From an uncultured Phycisphaerae bacterium (GTDB taxonomy: Bacteria > Planctomycetota > Phycisphaerae > Sedimentisphaerales > Anaerohalosphaeraceae), in NCBI GenBank assembly GCA_937949545.1, contig CALEDR010000007.1, forward strand, positions 62,001 to 126,000: DNA of 64,000 nt. The letters run 5' to 3'. Under the pieces are notes generated by a model that was not told the DNA's origin, did no database searches, and worked only from the letters and a program-made list of their open reading frames with translations. A program made the position numbers and the translations under genes. Positions 2,381 to 9,912 of this stretch are shown in pieces (the stretch's first letter is position 1; every line of letters starts with the position of its first letter).

Positions 2381-3018
2381 AATCTGATTCCCGCCCTGTT
2401 TTGTCCTGTATTTTGTCATTTTACGGCCTGCTTATAAAGCAATGCCGTCGGCCGGGGCTGTTTCCAAATTTTTTTTCGAAGCACGAAAAAATTGTGTTTT
2501 TGGACTGGGAATTGGATTGCGGGGTGTCGTGGACAGTCGGCATATGGGAAACCGTGCGATTGAAAAAATCGGGAAAGGGCGGATTTGCGGGTTTTTGAGC
2601 GAAAAAAGGGGTTTTGGGTGGAAAAACATCGGGGAAAGTACCGATTGAAACGCGCCCAAACGCGCTGCAAACGTGCCGCAAACGAGATGGAAAAGAGTTT
2701 TTTTAACCACGGATGGACACAGAGATTATTTCACCACGGATTTACACGGATGAACACGGATTCCAGCGGCCAGCGGGAGAAAAATCCGAAGCACGAAATT
2801 CGAAATCCGAAACGAAGAAAGACAGGAATGCAGAACAGAATAGGAATGCAAGAATCCAGGAATACATGTAGTCATGGGGCGGGTGAAGATGTTCGGTATT
2901 TTGCAGGCCATTTGTTCCTCCTTCTATTGTTGGGGGGTATTATACCACAGAGAAGGGCAAAAAACAACCGCGGATTTGAACCACGGATTTACACGGATGA
3001 ACACGGATTCCAGCGGCC
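2381..3018. other. Non-coding stretch with repeat material
   Basis: No convincing gene is present. 2381-2700 is upstream of the pseudopilin and shows A/T-runs but no clear promoter match. 2701-3020 carries two copies of a 41-bp direct repeat, other CCACGGAT/ACACGGAT units, and a segment rich in GAAATTC/CGAAATCCG-like words (about 2785-2830). That low-information vocabulary resembles dispersed intergenic repeats. An open plus-strand frame crosses it but has no protein-like features. Confidence 0.6.
2733..2773 (+). repeat. 41-bp direct repeat, copy 1
   Basis: This copy is identical to 2980-3020 and built from ACACGGAT-like units (core CCACGGATTTACACGGATGA). The imperfect copy just before it (2705-2725, AACCACGGATGGACACAGAG) suggests a degenerate tandem family. 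Related words occur in the gspE-gspF gap at 61583-61641. Confidence 0.85.
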
Positions 3019-3020
3019 AG
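2980..3020 (+). repeat. 41-bp direct repeat, copy 2
   Basis: This is an exact second copy of 2733-2773, starting 247 bp further on. It ends against the 12-bp arm (3019-3030) that brackets the dockerin fragment, so the repeat sits exactly at a rearrangement boundary. Confidence 0.85.
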
Positions 3021-3183
3021 ATTTCAGCGGGCGGCGGGCGGCTGCCGGCCGGGGGGAATATTGGGGTCGCTGTGCAGGTTGCACAGCCCGCACAGCCGCC
3101 CTTCGTCAAAGACCGCCGTCAGCCAGTGCTTCGCGACAATCGCCAAATCCTCCAGATTCACCATCCCGTCTCCGCTGAAATCT
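3019..3183. repeat. 12-bp perfect inverted repeat bracketing the dockerin fragment
   Basis: AGATTTCAGCGG at 3019-3030 and its exact reverse complement CCGCTGAAATCT at 3172-3183 flank the duplicated segment. The right arm is almost entirely part of the dockerin coding sequence. The left arm is new at this site, so the structure may mark a template-switch breakpoint rather than a transposon end. No target duplication is evident. Confidence 0.7.
3024..3182 (-). pseudogene. Stray dockerin/EF-hand gene fragment
   Basis: Positions 3042-3182 match 8095-8235 at 140 of 141 bases (the one difference is at 3131). Read leftward the fragment encodes DFSGDGMVNLEDLAIVAKHW and the following cysteine-containing loop, the same EF-hand-like repeat as residues 560-606 of the 1078-residue protein. 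It has no start codon. An in-frame TGA lies just upstream, around 3207, and after the match the frame ends at 3024. It is therefore a non-functional piece left by local duplication. Its near-identity indicates a recent event or ongoing gene conversion. Confidence 0.85.
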
Positions 3184-3236: not shown

Positions 3237-3818
3237 TCATGGAGCATTCCGTTCTTTCAAGGCGGAAGCTAATAGTTTATACAATGTTTTATCTTTTCCC
3301 CTCGGAGTGACGGCAAATCCATCCTTTGTTAATGCGAAAGGCACAAGACGAGTTGTTTGGGAGTGCAAATGGCTCGAAATAGATATAACAACCAAGACAC
3401 TATTTGGCTTTATTACATATTTTTCTGGAAGTTCCGGGTCATACAAACATGCTATCATCTGACTGATTTCATTTGGTTCCGAATACACTTTTATCAGAGT
3501 GCGTCTGGGGGGCAGCCCATCCCATTCTCCGCTTTCAAAAGTCGATTTCCCCCTCCATCGAGACATCTCTGCCTTCGAACTTTTCACAGCCGGATAGGGA
3601 TGATAGAGGGAAAAATAATCAGGGCCTTCCTCCGGAGACCCAAACTGGACTATGCATACCGGAATTTCATCGTCCGGTACCCTGCTGTACAGGGCTGATG
3701 CTCCATCCCACACAGGCAGTAATTTGGGATAGGAGTTTGACTTGTTAAGGCAGCGGCGGCTGCACCCAAAAAGAAATAAAAAAAGCATAAACAACAAAAA
3801 GATACCGTGATTTTTCAT
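3237..3818 (-). CDS. Hypothetical lipoprotein
   Basis: The 193-residue product starts MKNHGIFLLFMLFLFLFGCS, a typical lipoprotein signal with the lipobox cysteine at residue 19. The mature protein has no recognised domain. Its central part (PDDEIPVCIVQFGSPEEG) and a basic C-terminus give no clear clue. It is the last gene of a leftward series starting at 9912, 19 bp after the caspase-like paralogue, so it is probably translated from the same transcript and may be envelope-associated. Confidence 0.65.
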   Translation of the reverse strand: MKNHGIFLLFMLFLFLFGCSRRCLNKSNSYPKLLPVWDGASALYSRVPDDEIPVCIVQFGSPEEGPDYFSLYHPYPAVKSSKAEMSRWRGKSTFESGEWDGLPPRRTLIKVYSEPNEISQMIACLYDPELPEKYVIKPNSVLVVISISSHLHSQTTRLVPFALTKDGFAVTPRGKDKTLYKLLASALKERNAP

Positions 3819-3837: not shown

Positions 3838-5235
3838 CTATTCCAATTTTTGATCTAACGCATGCAAACCATAGAAGATTAACAGCTGGTGATCCAGGTT
3901 CGATGGGTCTGCGTCATACATTCCATTGAAGCCGAGACATTGCCGCCTGATCCCGATTTCAGATTGCTGGATTGCCATAATTCCATCCCATACAGTTTTA
4001 GCTTTTTCGCTCGTTTCTCCAAGTTTATCAAAAAAGATGGAAATACCCCGAACCAAATTGTCTCCGATTCCCTCTGCCCAGCCGCCATTGGTCTGCAAGA
4101 CGGCGTATCGATAACCGCCATACATCATATCCCCCCAAGCATGATCATGCTCTGAACCGCATCCCTGGGCTTCGGCCATATCCGGATAAGCCGCAGAAAG
4201 ACAGCCAAAAATGAACATTTTATCGATCCGGCAGTCCAATGCAGGATTGCTGTTGCGGAGTGCGTACAGATCAAATGCATAATCATCCAGGGGTATGGGA
4301 TGTGGAGTTTCATAATAATAAGGCAATGGAATTGCCGCCGGTCTGCTGCGTCTTGTGTACGAAAAGGCACCAAGATCATAGAAAGCGCCGGGGTTTGCAA
4401 CCCTGCTTTGGCGGAAGCATTGAAAGCGGGTTCTCTGAACATCCCCTACATGGCTGTTCGCATGACCAAAATAAATAACGATCCGCCGCCCCGGCATTGT
4501 AAAAAATAAAAAATCCAGATTTTGCTGGTTTACATCGTAACCGGACAAAACTGCATAGGGCAACCGCCGATTCTCGGCTGCCTTTACAGCAGAACAAATT
4601 GCCTGCCAAAATATTCGTGTAACTTTCCTATCCGGCAACAGGAAGACCACACGTGCCCTTTTTCCCTCCCAATCGTTCGGATCAAAACGCTTTTTGAGCA
4701 GTTTCTCATATCGTTTTCTGTCGCTGTTGTTGGGAGTTCCAGAAACACCGAACACGCCTTCTTGATAAATTTCTTCATCTGTCAGACTCATTTCACAAAG
4801 CCAGTGAGTCTTCAAAATGTTTGTCGGTATAGTTATGTCCATCCTCCCGGGGAGAATATTCACATCGTAAATTATTTCATTCCGGATATCTGAAATAGCC
4901 AAATCCCGTCTGTTACCAAGATTAAAACCGCTGATTATAAATGGTTCATTGGGCTCAAATGTCTCCGGAATGTCGGCATAATACAGCCCCGCCGTGCCGG
5001 CCCCTTCGATCACGCGTTCGGTGATCTCCAGCCCCCAATCAATGGTTCGCACCACCCTGAGCCGATGACTGCCCGGCCCCAACCGTGTCAAATCCGCCTC
5101 AAAGACCGGCCCCCCCAGCGTTCCGGCCTGCCAGGTCCCGAGGCATTCCCCATCCAGAAAGGCGGAAATCCGCCAGGCCGGCTGGGGCTGAGCGATTCCA
5201 ATTCCCTTCCGGTCTCTTGAAAAAACTTTCACCAC
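3838..5235 (-). CDS. Putative caspase-like (clan CD-type) domain protein, paralogue of the 1078-residue protein's C-terminus
   Basis: The 465-residue product aligns by eye with residues ~640-1078 of the large protein at 6676-9912. Shared landmarks are FEPNEPF versus YEPNEPY, FGHANSHVG versus IGHTNSQIG, and FGCLSA versus IGCETG. After an Ig-like N-terminal region (to ~110), a strand (RARVVFLLP) is followed by a strand ending in His258 (IVIYFGH). Another strand ends in Cys345 (MFIFGC), followed by YAVLQTNGGWAEGIGDNLVR. The order strand-His, strand-Cys is that of clan CD cysteine peptidases. That assignment is inference. It starts with GTG, overlaps the previous stop by 7 bp, and follows GGAGGAG. 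No signal peptide is present, so it may be N-terminally truncated relative to its paralogue. Confidence 0.65.
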   Translation of the reverse strand: MVKVFSRDRKGIGIAQPQPAWRISAFLDGECLGTWQAGTLGGPVFEADLTRLGPGSHRLRVVRTIDWGLEITERVIEGAGTAGLYYADIPETFEPNEPFIISGFNLGNRRDLAISDIRNEIIYDVNILPGRMDITIPTNILKTHWLCEMSLTDEEIYQEGVFGVSGTPNNSDRKRYEKLLKKRFDPNDWEGKRARVVFLLPDRKVTRIFWQAICSAVKAAENRRLPYAVLSGYDVNQQNLDFLFFTMPGRRIVIYFGHANSHVGDVQRTRFQCFRQSRVANPGAFYDLGAFSYTRRSRPAAIPLPYYYETPHPIPLDDYAFDLYALRNSNPALDCRIDKMFIFGCLSAAYPDMAEAQGCGSEHDHAWGDMMYGGYRYAVLQTNGGWAEGIGDNLVRGISIFFDKLGETSEKAKTVWDGIMAIQQSEIGIRRQCLGFNGMYDADPSNLDHQLLIFYGLHALDQKLE

Positions 5236-6641
5236 TCCTCCATCATCGGTACTTTTTCATCCGCCGCTGTGACTGCAATCGGCCAGTATACAATATCAGG
5301 AAGATGAATATGAAGACTAAGGTCTCTTTTGGAAGTTTTTTTGTTGAAAGTCCCGCCATTGTCTTCAAAATCTTCTCCAATGCTGTACAAAGTGAAACCG
5401 TCCCCCAGAATTTTATAGATCATGGGGCCGTTACTGTACGGATCCATCGGTATAGAACGCAAATAGCCCTCTACGGCCAGTTTATCCAGGGTCTGCGGAT
5501 AGACACCTGTGTCGTTTTTGTATCGCAAAACGGCAAGAACAGCAATCAATGCATTCATCTGAGCGGCTGTTTTGTGATAAGTATGAATCATGGCTTCCGG
5601 ATTCAGGTGAACGTGCGAAACAATAAAGAAAATATGACTGCGCTCTACTTCGTCAAATCTCTCAAAGGCGGAAGGAACGTCCTGAAGTATTTGCCAGGGG
5701 GTTTTTTGAAGCAGATGATCGGAAAGCTCGATTAAATCGTCTATTTGACGGGTTATTTCATTCCGAGTCGTTCCGAACAAACAAAAATATGCCCGCTCCT
5801 TCAGGGCTTCAAAATAGATGTGAAAAACAGAGAGGTCAGAAGCCAGCAAAGCCCGGGGATACCCGGAACGCCAGGCCCATCGTCCGGTCCCTCTGCCGTT
5901 GTCCAGAAACGTTCGCTGAAGCATATCCTCCGCAAAAAACTTTTCCGTTTTGAAACTGGGTCGATACATATCCTCGGCAGCCAATGTCTCCAGACTTTCC
6001 TGCCACACTCTTAAAATGGAACTGCCGATAGAATATTGCTGAAGCATGAGGAAAAGGTTTTCCGCCGTCATTTGTCTGAGCCGAAGCCCAAGAAACTGGT
6101 CAGCCACAAATAACTGCGGACTGCACAAATGATTTCCGGCACGACAGCAGTGCAGAAGAGTCTCGAGGGCCTTTTCAAATCGTCCTTCCTGAGCCTCAAG
6201 CCGGGCTTTCCAGATACAGACTTCGGCCAGCTGGCTGAAGGAGGGAATCTCCGGAACCCGGATTCCGCACATCGTCCCATCTTCGGAAAAGCGTTCAGGT
6301 CGATAATACGGCTTGCCGGAGGCTGTCTGAAAATATTCGGCAGCCGCTGCATTGGCTTTGAGCCATTCGATCATGGATTCCGGCAGAGGCCGAAGACAGT
6401 AAGGGTCCACAGCCCAAACGTCATCCGATTTCGGCACATAAGCTTCGAATGCCTTTTGGTAAAGGAAGGCAGCGTTTTCGTCCGGTTTGAACCCCGGTGG
6501 TTTTGACCAGTCATTATATTTGGCCACGTAATCTGTTTGAATCAAAGGCCTTTGGGCGAAAAGCCAACCTATTTTCGCAAGGAAAATAACAGGCAGCACT
6601 CCGCCCAAAAGCAGCAAGCAATTTCGTTTTCTGATTCTCAT
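5229..6641 (-). CDS. Membrane-anchored protein with GspG-like C-terminal motif, function unknown
   Basis: The 470-residue product begins MRIRKRNCLLLLGGVLPVIF, a basic stretch and one membrane helix, leaving the rest probably outside the cytoplasm. The middle is helical (KARLEAQEGRFEKALETLLH) with repeat-like periodicity. The C-terminus (~360-440) has the pattern YPQTLDKL...IPMDPYSNGPMIYKI...FTLYSIGEDFEDNGG. The same pattern ends major pseudopilins and many planctomycete proteins of unknown role. The frame extends to 6977 inside the neighbouring gene. The ATG at 6641 follows GGAAGAGAAGGG and gives the membrane helix at the N-terminus. It lies 34 bp after the 1078-residue gene and overlaps the next by 7 bp, so it is probably in the same operon. 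Confidence 0.72.
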   Translation of the reverse strand: MRIRKRNCLLLLGGVLPVIFLAKIGWLFAQRPLIQTDYVAKYNDWSKPPGFKPDENAAFLYQKAFEAYVPKSDDVWAVDPYCLRPLPESMIEWLKANAAAAEYFQTASGKPYYRPERFSEDGTMCGIRVPEIPSFSQLAEVCIWKARLEAQEGRFEKALETLLHCCRAGNHLCSPQLFVADQFLGLRLRQMTAENLFLMLQQYSIGSSILRVWQESLETLAAEDMYRPSFKTEKFFAEDMLQRTFLDNGRGTGRWAWRSGYPRALLASDLSVFHIYFEALKERAYFCLFGTTRNEITRQIDDLIELSDHLLQKTPWQILQDVPSAFERFDEVERSHIFFIVSHVHLNPEAMIHTYHKTAAQMNALIAVLAVLRYKNDTGVYPQTLDKLAVEGYLRSIPMDPYSNGPMIYKILGDGFTLYSIGEDFEDNGGTFNKKTSKRDLSLHIHLPDIVYWPIAVTAADEKVPMMEEW

Positions 6642-6675
6642 ACAATCCCTTCTCTTCCTGCAGAGTCCGCTCCTT

Positions 6676-9600
6676 TCAGTACCAATACAGCCAGTCCAAT
6701 TTTGCAGACAGCGGCCACCATTGAATTGTCCTTTCCTCCATCCCGTCTCTTCCCCAAACAGCTCGATATTCGTGGAAGCCGATCGGACCATTTCGGAGGG
6801 CATCGTGTAAATTTCTGTCGGAATGGGCCCGGAGGATATGGGCCCATGCACGGGGAAAATCCGCCGCCTGTTCAACAAGATATCCATACCAGATTGGAGT
6901 TCTTGTCCCGATATAGACATGGACATAGTTGCCCTGCTGATCTTGATAATAGGCGCCGACGGCATACGCCATGTCATTGTAATTCATTACCTGATTCGCA
7001 TTTTTCCACTCCAAACCTGTCTCACACCCAATCGCCCAGAATTCTTTTATCGTTTTGGTTTTCCATAAACCCAAAGACCACATACTGCGACCGCGAATTT
7101 CCCAATCTGAAGGAAGAGGGTCAAGTGCAGGCGGATAAATTAATCGATCGGAACGCTTGCAGGAAAAAATCCTGTTCTCTACAAAGAACGGCCAATATTT
7201 CCGTTTGTCCCAGCACTTAAAGTTTGTCCGATGCGTTCCCTCCCGGATTACCTCAAGCCTGAGATTTCTTGTTTCCCCTATTTGACTGTTGGTATGGCCG
7301 ATCCAGTAAACATAATGAAGATTTTTCCCGCAAAGGGCTGTTTGAATATTATCCCAGTTCGCATTTGTGCCGAGCAATTCTATGCAGGAAATCCCTTTTA
7401 ACAAAAGACAGGCTCGGATCTCGGCTATCGAGATTTCAAAATCTCTGTTAGCCCTCTCAAAAGGTGCGATAATCACCGCCCGGAAGGAGTTGGGGTCGAT
7501 ACGGCTCATGTCCACGTTTTCGCTCAGCGGCCCCCAAAGCGTCGTCGGCCCGGAGGCCTTTTCCCCGCCGATCGACACCGCCGCTTTCGAAGCCGGCCCC
7601 AACAAGGCCTGATGCCGAAACCAGCCGCCTTCATAAACCGCTTCCTCTCCCGAACCAGCCTGTACCCGCACCGAGGCCCCGTCAAAAAAGCCGCACAATT
7701 CGTACGGCTCGTTCGGCTCATACATCGGCGGAATCGAAGCATAGAAAATCACGTTATCAAACCGCACCGTCTGCGGCACCAGCCAGCATCCTCCTTGAGA
7801 GGTATAGCCGCCCACAGCCAGCCGATGGACACCGTTGCTGTACTCGTAGGTGAGAATTTCAAAAAAGACCTCTCCCTCCCGGTCCGGATAGGTCTGACCG
7901 GCCAGCTGCCCATCCACCTGCACAAAAACCCGGGAAGAAACCGGATAGTTCTTCACCTGAATGACTGTCAGGCCGGATAAGGCATTCGATTCCATTGGGC
8001 TGCCGTTCGGATCCGAAAACAAGACGGATACTTCCAGCCGGATCCCGCTGCCCCATTCGGCCCAAAAGGCGTTCATATCCCTGTCGTCAATTGTCTGCCG
8101 GCCGGGGGGAATATTGGGGTCGCTGTGCAGGTTGCACAGCCCGCACAGCCGCCCTTCGTCAAAGACCGCCGTCAGCCAGTGCTCCGCGACAATCGCCAAA
8201 TCCTCCAGATTCACCATCCCGTCTCCGCTGAAATCCGACCGGGCGCAGTTTGGGTCGTGAAGGCCCGGCTGATTCGGGTCGGCCGTGTAGCCGTAATTCT
8301 TTGCAAAAATCCCCAAATCCGGCAGATTGACCCAGCTGTCAGCGTTCAGGTCCATCCGCACCCGATTCGGGTCATCCGTCGCCCCCATGCACGCCTCCAT
8401 CAGGGCCAAATCCTGCTCATCCACAACGCCGTCCCAATTGAAGTCAGCCGGACTGCTCGGAATCCCGAACGTCCCCGTGACCCCAACCGGAAAATGACAG
8501 CCGATATCCAGAATCCCCGTGTCCGGCCGGTCATGAGCCGTACCCGTCCCATCATCGGCCATCCCATACCCCGCATCCGTCAGTTCTGAATCCGGCAGAA
8601 CATACAGTTTTTCCCATTCCTGCGGGAAGTTATACAGCGGATCATGGCTCAGCCCGATGCAACCGCTGAAAGAATCTTCGAAATTGGCATTTTGTCGGTT
8701 GCCCCAAAAAGCGCTATGGACAATCTCGGCCTCCGTCAGGCCTGACCGCTGGTAAATCCCAAAGAAATAACTATTTGCAAAACAACTGTTTACCGCTCGG
8801 ATGCGGACTTCCGGCAGTTGGTTCGGGTCTGATGTATTTGGGTCTGCCGTGTTTGGGTCTGTCCAGGGCTCGTCAATATAAAGCCCGACATCTCCCTCAT
8901 AAAGGATGGTTCGCTCAATTTCTACGGTAAAGATAGGAAACGAACTTATGTCCGGAACCACATAAATGCCGGTCCCGACATAACCAAGCAACCCGTGAAA
9001 GATAGAACCGTTGAGCCAAAACTCGCAGTCTTGAACGGCTGCCGGAGCATACAATTGAAGTCCGTCAAAACATCCTGCGGTAATCACCCACCGCAGAGGT
9101 GTTTCGAGCGGTTCGTTGAGCACAATCCCCGCGATACAATGCGTAACAATCAGATTTTCAATCCGCGTTTTCGGGTCGGCCCCGCGGTGCACGTAAATCC
9201 CTGCCGCGTTATTGACAAACCAGTTGTTCGGTTCTGCCGCCTCAATTCTCACGGCCGGCAGCACGGCCGGGCAGTCCCCCTCATAAAAAGCCGCCCGGCC
9301 AAGGTCCAGCCGCCCGCCGGGCATCACCTCAATCACTGGCAGATTCGGATCATAAGGAGCAATCAGCCGAGTGCCGGCGGGCATCACAACATACCCCTCA
9401 ATCCGGATAGGCAGAGATGTAATTCGGTAAGTTTTCGGCTCCAGAATACACGACCCCAGCGGTCCGGCCAGCTCTTCAAACGATTCCGATTCTCTTCCTA
9501 AGGTTCGTATGCTGACAGTCTCAACCAGCTCCGGATCCTCTTGGGGAGCCGCTGTCTCTATCTTCGGAAGTGAATCTGGAGAATCTGTTGGCTCATTGGC

Positions 9601-9912
9601 AGAGAAAAGGGCGACTTCTGGACAAATCACCTCCACATAAGGCCGACTGTTTGGGTCCAGTCCCATCCGAAGCCAGTTCAGCAACGCCCAAGCCATTTGG
9701 TCGCGTGAAGATGGGGAATCCTGCAGAGCGAGAATCTCATTCGGCTCGTCGGGAATCTGGGATGTATCATAATCGTAAATAGCATAGAGAACCTTCAGCA
9801 GTGTCGAAATTCGGCTATGCTGTTCTTTTAGGATGTTGGTAGACGAAAAAACATCTGTCAGGAAAATAGTGACAAAAAGTGCCACCTTTAAAAGACGCCT
9901 CCCTCTACACAT
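6676..9912 (-). CDS. Large exported protein: beta-helix-like region, EF-hand/dockerin repeats, caspase-like C-terminal domain
   Basis: The 1078-residue protein has an N-terminal signal peptide (RRLLKVALFVTIFLTDVFSS). Residues ~155-420 look like a right-handed parallel beta-helix, with a DPNTADPNTSDPNQ linker at 352-364. Three calcium-loop-like motifs follow: DFNWDGVVDEQDL (490-502), DLNADSWVNLPDL (521-533) and DFSGDGMVNLEDL (560-572). These are typical of dockerin type I/EF-hand repeats. After an Ig-like segment (~625-740) comes a domain shared with the 465-residue neighbour. It has His873 (YWIGHTNSQIG) and Cys963 (FWAIGCETG), a possible catalytic dyad of a clan CD-like peptidase. The start at 9912 follows GGAGAGGAAAA. 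Peptidase activity is unproven. A surface or extracellular role is likely from the signal peptide. Confidence 0.75.
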   Translation of the reverse strand: MCRGRRLLKVALFVTIFLTDVFSSTNILKEQHSRISTLLKVLYAIYDYDTSQIPDEPNEILALQDSPSSRDQMAWALLNWLRMGLDPNSRPYVEVICPEVALFSANEPTDSPDSLPKIETAAPQEDPELVETVSIRTLGRESESFEELAGPLGSCILEPKTYRITSLPIRIEGYVVMPAGTRLIAPYDPNLPVIEVMPGGRLDLGRAAFYEGDCPAVLPAVRIEAAEPNNWFVNNAAGIYVHRGADPKTRIENLIVTHCIAGIVLNEPLETPLRWVITAGCFDGLQLYAPAAVQDCEFWLNGSIFHGLLGYVGTGIYVVPDISSFPIFTVEIERTILYEGDVGLYIDEPWTDPNTADPNTSDPNQLPEVRIRAVNSCFANSYFFGIYQRSGLTEAEIVHSAFWGNRQNANFEDSFSGCIGLSHDPLYNFPQEWEKLYVLPDSELTDAGYGMADDGTGTAHDRPDTGILDIGCHFPVGVTGTFGIPSSPADFNWDGVVDEQDLALMEACMGATDDPNRVRMDLNADSWVNLPDLGIFAKNYGYTADPNQPGLHDPNCARSDFSGDGMVNLEDLAIVAEHWLTAVFDEGRLCGLCNLHSDPNIPPGRQTIDDRDMNAFWAEWGSGIRLEVSVLFSDPNGSPMESNALSGLTVIQVKNYPVSSRVFVQVDGQLAGQTYPDREGEVFFEILTYEYSNGVHRLAVGGYTSQGGCWLVPQTVRFDNVIFYASIPPMYEPNEPYELCGFFDGASVRVQAGSGEEAVYEGGWFRHQALLGPASKAAVSIGGEKASGPTTLWGPLSENVDMSRIDPNSFRAVIIAPFERANRDFEISIAEIRACLLLKGISCIELLGTNANWDNIQTALCGKNLHYVYWIGHTNSQIGETRNLRLEVIREGTHRTNFKCWDKRKYWPFFVENRIFSCKRSDRLIYPPALDPLPSDWEIRGRSMWSLGLWKTKTIKEFWAIGCETGLEWKNANQVMNYNDMAYAVGAYYQDQQGNYVHVYIGTRTPIWYGYLVEQAADFPRAWAHILRAHSDRNLHDALRNGPIGFHEYRAVWGRDGMEERTIQWWPLSAKLDWLYWY

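Follow-up and report, generated by a model that had tools for sequence, protein, structure and literature searches.

A gene array on the minus strand of a 64,000-nucleotide stretch of DNA from an uncultured Phycisphaerae bacterium (contig CALEDR010000007.1, positions 62,001–126,000, forward; this whole stretch is called the window here, and positions follow its numbering) is best explained as a polymorphic-toxin-like array of peptidase and inhibitor cassettes. The probability of this reading is put at about 0.55. The proposed mechanism has five elements. (i) A stem gene would encode an exported protein, with a signal peptide, a beta-helix, a dockerin and an immunoglobulin-like (Ig-like) segment, that bears a caspase-like cysteine-peptidase tip. 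(ii) The next gene would encode an exported or membrane-anchored cognate partner, which most likely restrains the tip as an immunity protein or inhibitor. (iii) Both the action of the tip and its restraint would be located in the periplasm or at the cell surface. (iv) Downstream cassettes of tip and partner, devoid of signal and stem, would constitute a silent stock. (v) Stem and Ig sequences present in several copies would recombine with one another and so exchange the tip carried on the stem. The features read from the sequence are a fold (by model), a catalytic dyad, a rule by which a partner gene follows each tip, orphan cassettes, near-identical repeats within single genomes, differing tips at one locus of sister species and a cassette that has diverged less than the genes around it.

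The array in the window runs in the order stem with tip b, P0003, orphan tip P0002, lipoprotein gene and stem remnant, all on the minus strand. P0001 (6676–9912) is the full-length protein of 1078 amino acids, composed of a likely signal peptide, as judged from the sequence, a beta-helix-like region, a dockerin, an Ig-like segment and the C-terminal caspase-like tip b. The beta-helix region was recognized from the sequence and from relatives that carry Pfam Beta_helix. An initial annotation of this DNA had assigned dockerin repeats to the exported member of a protein pair, and Dockerin_1 indeed matches residues 489–533 above the Pfam cut-off (E = 3.9e-6; 27.4 bits, cut-off 22.9). The dockerin-type stem segment as a whole covers residues approximately 489–583 (8164–8448), its end being placed by eye. 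At E ≤ 1 the Pfam search of P0001 returned Dockerin_1 alone, and none of the filamentous haemagglutinin repeats that mark the two-partner-secretion stem of contact-dependent growth inhibition (CDI) systems. Tip b, delimited by the profile match, occupies residues approximately 790–1078 (6679–7545) and contains His873 and Cys963. Its partner P0003 (5232–6641; 470 amino acids from the ATG at 6641) starts 34 bases past the P0001 stop and has an N-terminal hydrophobic anchor; the C-terminus gives a weak GspG-like match that lies below the cut-offs of Pfam and NCBIfam. The GTG start of P0002 (3838–5235; 465 amino acids) overlaps the P0003 stop codon. This orphan tip has no signal peptide and no stem, begins inside an Ig-like segment and continues into a caspase-like domain with His258 and Cys345. 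Its partner is a lipoprotein-like protein of 193 amino acids with a lipobox-like LFGC (3237–3818), the gene for which starts 19 bases past the P0002 stop. The array is closed by a 141 bp stem-junction remnant (3042–3182) that matches the stem-junction repeat within P0001 (8095–8235) at 140 of 141 bases. Beyond the array, a perfect 41 bp direct repeat (2733–2773 and 2980–3020) lies between the stem remnant and a prepilin-like gene.

The starting point for the initial annotation was a pair of open reading frames (ORFs) in which one strand ends in GH and a later one in GC. Both ORFs are present at the positions it gave, with the motifs FGHANS/FGCLSA and IGHTNS/IGCETG, and the His and Cys were located at the residues named above in P0001 and P0002. 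The two proteins are paralogous, as had been claimed, though distant: a single BLASTP comparison gives 22% identity over 307 columns (E = 4e-7), in an alignment that takes in the Ig segment and that half of the tip which contains the His. At E ≤ 0.001, neither P0001 nor P0002 recovered its paralogue in whole-genome searches; both are recovered when the order is searched by profile.

The P0002 tip was folded with AlphaFold2 from alignment A2, which holds 31 tips with that of P0002 first. The model has a predicted local distance difference test score (pLDDT) of 85.6 and a predicted template modelling score (pTM) of 0.87. His98 lies just after strand 90–96, and Cys185 just after strand 176–183. 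A His and then a Cys after successive core strands is the order characteristic of clan CD peptidases. Foldseek alone gave no match to this model at E ≤ 0.001, the best being an asparaginyl endopeptidase at E = 4.8e-3. In a second look with VIA-align, all 50 matches listed are clan CD proteins by their titles, with Z from 13.7 to 9.7. The best of these is SAVED-CHAT (8tl0_C; Z 13.7, root-mean-square deviation 3.1 Å, 186 residues), and those listed include legumains, gingipain RgpB, the glycosylphosphatidylinositol transamidase complex, caspases, MALT1, separase and metacaspase 9. For the tips and proteins tried, no known peptidase family was found by sequence in Pfam, NCBIfam or PDB sequences. 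The clan CD assignment is made because of the VIA-align comparison, the motifs and the family alignment, which support the view, already advanced for this pair, that the tips, of which that of P0002 was modelled, are divergent proteins of clan CD (caspase–hemoglobinase fold). They share with SAVED-CHAT, legumain, gingipain RgpB, caspases and metacaspases the fold and the order of strand-His then strand-Cys, but differ from the clan CD structures listed in a sequence identity of 5–14%, in the HT and HA of the window and in the Asp or Arg that replaces His in some relatives. A weak PglZ match in PADLOC (0.007) was dismissed as chance.

Conservation in homologues bears on the same two residues. 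The motif pair is no chance resemblance, for the Cys is invariant in the 31 aligned tips of A2. Among the 53 tip matches, it is kept in 49 of the 49 that cover that column, and the His in 36 of the 43 that cover it; these counts take in all 53 matches, near-duplicates too. The two proteins may alternatively be inactive relatives, as the initial annotation allowed: both window tips keep the dyad, but Asp or Arg takes the place of the His in seven of the 43. The residue after the His in the 36 tips is Gly in 27, Ala in seven and Thr in two. HG is therefore the commonest form, and the HT and HA of the window are variants of an HG family; the remark that HG is usual and HA or HT unusual holds within the tip family too. 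Asp occupies the place of the catalytic His in the L032, L029, L079 and L080 tips, and a second His follows four residues on in L032 and L029. As a whole, the initial annotation is partly supported. Its proposal of display outside the cell agrees with P0001, which has a likely signal peptide and a dockerin, and not with P0002, which has neither. The partner genes and the cassette array, absent from that annotation, change the likeliest identity of the locus.

Partner genes were assessed over the 53 tip matches, which come from a profile search over the ORFs of the extracted genome stretches. Two fragments, two matches at contig ends and one gene broken by a stop were dropped, leaving 48, and removal of two with fewer than 350 bases downstream left 46 assessable tips. 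A partner was defined as an ORF of at least 90 amino acids on the same strand with an ATG within −45 to +41 bases of the tip stop, and as exported by a hydropathy threshold. Exported or anchored thus means predicted from N-terminal hydrophobicity, and the lipobox test is a loose one. By this rule 44 of the 46 tips have a partner, all 44 with a strongly hydrophobic N-terminus and 23 with a loosely defined lipobox. The gap is 5–34 bases in 43 cases, and the remaining ORF overlaps the tip by 38. Control ORFs of the same stretches meet the rule in 25 of 234 cases (Fisher p = 7e-31 versus tips, a value that overstates independence because the tips are related to one another). The control rate is lowered because these ORFs were called mechanically and include some that are not genes; restriction by length gives 10/117 for ORFs of at least 300 amino acids and 2/54 for those of at least 450. 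The two tips that lack a partner by the rule are L131 and L137. A looser criterion (wider distance, any start codon) selects other ORFs for L130 and L131, and for L137 an ORF 68 bases away. The 46 partners of this looser listing form 13 groups by single-linkage BLASTP (1e-4). The largest comprises 21 lipoproteins and anchored proteins, and the second, nine of the P0003 type.

One partner belongs to a known inhibitor class. In genome G154 the tip gene is followed after 12 bases by a serpin gene (Pfam Serpin, 405 bits, E = 4e-121, residues 39–404 of 406). The product has a hydrophobic N-terminus and is the only serpin found in that genome. It is the strongest hint that the partner acts as an inhibitor. 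The periplasm or the cell surface is probably where the tips act, given that the partners are predicted in or at the envelope, and the partner may be taken as an inhibitor. Two further partners are unusual in kind. At L133:5742–8678 (G032) the tip is followed by a partner of 979 amino acids with many hydrophobic stretches and a weak HEAT-like match. At L035:1975–3117 (G021) the partner is a right-handed beta-helix with a hydrophobic N-terminus (Pfam Beta_helix, 3.1e-8), unlike other partners.

Orphan tips that retain both His and Cys number six in five genomes. They derive from 16 short matches, the rest being truncated, fragments or broken. They are P0002 in the window, tip b of G028, two in G064, one in G012 and one in G063, the last of which (L140) is possibly the end of a broken full-length gene. 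Genome G028, of the same genus as the window genome, has the same flanks around the locus. Its contig C9 carries tip a with a partner, tip b as an orphan that starts within the dockerin segment, P0003 and the start of another Ig segment. Contig C21 carries tip c, a lipoprotein gene, a stem remnant and the downstream flank of the window, and C10 the stem up to the Ig repeat. Three contig ends carry the same 141 bases (100%), and C9 and C10 share 352 bp at 98.9%. These shared repeats at contig ends most likely broke the G028 assembly. The order of the contigs is deduced, as is the tip (a or c) carried by the stem; for tip b, the sequence itself shows an orphan in the interior of a contig. In G028 the main tip of the window, tip b, is an orphan, accompanied by the same partner family, P0003.

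Related arrays occur in other genomes. The array of G029 looks collapsed: a signal peptide is fused to an apparent tip end, and a lipoprotein-like ORF and the tail of P0002 with its lipoprotein are present. In both G028 and G029, stem-junction copies related to 3042–3182 sit just after the last lipoprotein gene. G064 has a gene of 1012 amino acids and then two orphan tips (460 and 484 amino acids), each with its own partner. In G146, a single contig, two loci share the first approximately 150 codons (88–96%) and the 3' flank (534 bp, 98.5%), and the rest differs. The full-length tip genes L071 and L072 of this genome, 227 kb apart, have a 5' arm of 462 bp at 97.6% identity and divergent middles; the arm was found at those two places of the genome only. 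This pattern suggests that the arms were recently copied or gene-converted. At L070:6906–10741 (G012:C11), 190 bases at the beginning of the tip ORF duplicate, with 91% identity, the beginning of the intact gene that follows, which we read as MurE/MurF-like. Between these copies are the tip, a second tip that is truncated, and their partners, an arrangement suggestive of an inserted cassette.

The comparison of the window with G028 also allows exchange to be dated in relative terms. The stem is 88.6% identical between them, and the tip set and order at the locus differ. Across profile columns the two versions of tip b share 95% identity, and across residues 641–1078, 93%. Tip b is open in both genomes, with a ratio of non-synonymous to synonymous divergence (dN/dS) of 0.16–0.18. 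At four-fold sites, tip b and P0003 together differ at 41 of 363 positions (11%), versus 227 of 1050 (22%) in four flanking genes (p = 9e-6); the stem has 47 differences in 270. Synonymous divergence (dS) is 0.16–0.17 for the cassette, 0.29 for the stem and 0.31–0.38 for the flanks. By these measures the tip b cassette, partner included, diverged more recently than the genes around it. In G029, the retained tail of P0002 and its lipoprotein have 12 four-fold differences in 110, versus 92 in 380 in a flanking gene (p = 0.002). The junction repeat has one difference in 141 within the window genome and approximately 91% (91.5%) identity to the G028 copies, as expected from recombination between copies. 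Tips thus appear, from these alignments, to have moved between related species.

Profile A2 has matches in 30 of 161 genomes of the order, in 25 of 397 drawn from the class and in two of 392 drawn from the phylum, namely the window's own genome and G146. One family member is present in VGXU01000029.1 (Planctomycetota bacterium isolate K_DeepCast_100m_m1_307). A first scan of genome contigs with P0002 gave no relative, and neither the G146 tip nor the full G146 protein had a match among phages, plasmids and viral contigs. Caspase-like tips could be the only ones seen because the tip had served as the query. A stem-only search for stems close to that of P0001, in which at most seven candidates were scored per genome, gave, at E ≤ 1e-30, 15 places in 12 of the order's 161 genomes, and among these 15 no other tip type is found on this stem. 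Thirteen are genes or orphan ORFs that carry a caspase-like tip, the one in G148 having a stop inside the match. The other two (G028 C10 and G150 C311) reach contig ends that overlap a tip-bearing contig. The window's own genome holds a third, distant tip gene (G000:C2, L129:4141–7836) with a stop inside the tip; a membrane-anchored partner-like ORF still follows it.

Tip and partner co-vary. Full-domain tips that occur in one genome, though not always at one locus, form 17 pairs, of which 16 have partners that are non-homologous by BLASTP (1e-5). Over 37 tips, mean tip identity is 0.38 where partners are homologous, versus 0.23, a result reached in none of 2000 shuffles. Such co-variation would also arise from co-evolution of an enzyme with its cleavage site, if the tip cleaved the adjacent membrane-bound partner as substrate or activator and so triggered a response in the same cell. 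Bacterial caspase-like proteases are known to cleave gasdermins. The predicted membrane anchors and lipoproteins among the partners suit this explanation, and the cleavage of Csx30 by Craspase, as given in the part of the literature consulted, is a precedent. We nevertheless regard it as unlikely. Defence caspases are cytosolic, whereas the full-length tips here are carried on exported-looking stems. One partner is a serpin, and the orphan cassettes and cassette transfer fit stored antidotes better.

A further alternative, a shade less probable again, is that these are ordinary secreted or surface peptidases, each with a dedicated exported accessory protein, which were duplicated in tandem and diverged neutrally or under the influence of their substrates with no role in conflict. 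Gingipains are surface peptidases of clan CD, so proteins of this sort exist. All tips found belong to one fold family, and two of the tips in G064 are duplicates at 63% identity whose partners are homologous, as tandem duplication would produce. Such duplication does not readily account for the 16 of 17 same-genome pairs with non-homologous partners, for the absence of signal and stem from P0002, for the joint youth of tip b and its partner relative to the flanks, or for the distant tips of a sister species at the same locus.

Several observations weigh against a polymorphic-toxin-like array. Classical polymorphic toxins carry unrelated folds, and all 15 stem places, found with at most seven candidates scored per genome, lead to a single tip fold. 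The His is missing from seven of 43 tips (four Asp, three Arg), including related ORFs of two genera (G012 and G028), whose Asp-for-His is common to tips 66% identical. Serpins are common in the order (77 of 161 genomes, mostly one each), and by contig only one listed serpin, that of G154, shares a contig with a tip found. Even among tip pairs at least 45% identical, 24 of 40 have partners non-homologous by BLASTP at 1e-5; partners have therefore been replaced on similar tips too, or have diverged beyond the reach of BLASTP. A younger age of the stem relative to the flanks lacks statistical significance (p = 0.13), and that of the cassette relative to the stem is marginal (p = 0.04). No cohesin for the dockerin was detected with PF00963 in the window's own genome, which is 99.7% complete, although a divergent cohesin is possible. 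The model of the lipoprotein (pLDDT 68.6) has no recognized protease inhibitor among the structures listed, an absence that proves nothing; its best VIA-align match, a thioesterase-like protein at Z 6.4, possibly reflects just a common arrangement. No secretion system was identified, and no search was aimed at one. Peptidase activity, toxicity and inhibition by the partner are inferred, as are the silence of the orphans, the delivery route and the target, and export is predicted. That the tips are binding modules and not enzymes, with caspase-like folds serving recognition or adhesion in antigenic or kin-recognition variation and catalysis lost in many, would suit the missing His, the Asp of the related G012 and G028 tips and the replacement of HG by HT and HA in the window, but it is very improbable given Cys in 49 of 49 tips, HG in 27 of the 36 His-bearing tips and an exported serpin as partner.

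The array preferred here, of peptidase and inhibitor cassettes, has several of the features by which polymorphic toxins are recognized in sequence: a conserved N-terminal part with an exchangeable tip, a gene directly downstream of nearly every tip, and orphan cassettes with recombination. In the portion of the source consulted, CDI arrays with orphan toxin/immunity pairs are described, the orphan modules mostly having no start signals (PMC3150448). Stem homology of CdiA-CT/CdiI stops at the junction, and a module that is an orphan in one strain can be the main one in a different strain (PMC3150448, same portion). The present locus resembles these arrays, so far as that portion describes them, in having a stem gene with tip and downstream partner and then orphan tip and partner modules (PMC3150448). 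It differs in its stem, which consists of a dockerin and, in relatives, a beta-helix by Pfam instead of haemagglutinin repeats. The tips found here are, moreover, all caspase-like, and the partners are predicted to be exported, as lipoproteins or as membrane proteins. The available part of a second source describes Tox-Caspase as the C-terminal-most domain of exported multi-domain proteins, probably a toxin in some cases, most versions being releasing peptidases, and reports that polymorphic toxins recombine with stand-alone cassettes (PMC3482391). A caspase-like domain at the C-terminus of a multi-domain exported protein, here predicted, is common to both; dockerin goes unmentioned in the part of that text searched (PMC3482391). 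In a further contrast with Tox-Caspase, Pfam and NCBIfam give no peptidase family for the tips tested here. SitA of myxobacteria and MafB of Neisseria, as covered by the excerpts used, are polymorphic toxins that operate among kin or neighbours. In SitA, according to the same excerpts, the toxin itself is the lipoprotein, whereas here it is the partner. The differences from known systems thus lie in the stem, the lineage, the single tip fold seen and the predicted export of the partners. In the literature searched, with partial coverage and by titles and abstract starts, no tip-switching system of such kind is described in planctomycetes, and in that partial literature no caspase-like toxin with lipoprotein immunity or serpin immunity of such kind.

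A wider interpretation is tentative, and we place it somewhat below even odds. The locus may belong to a conflict system that operates outside the cytoplasm with a single fold. Caspase-like tips would have diversified to approximately 15–20% identity, and antidotes would have been recruited repeatedly from unrelated exported families, a serpin included. Matched sets would serve as kin markers, and switching would occur at the stem and Ig repeats. Caspase-like folds are central to animal cell death and to several bacterial defence systems. If the tips are toxins held by exported inhibitors, the family would amount to a ready-made collection of caspase-like enzymes together with their matched inhibitors, the latter of several kinds and including a serpin. 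Whether a serpin protects bacteria from a caspase-like enzyme would then become testable.

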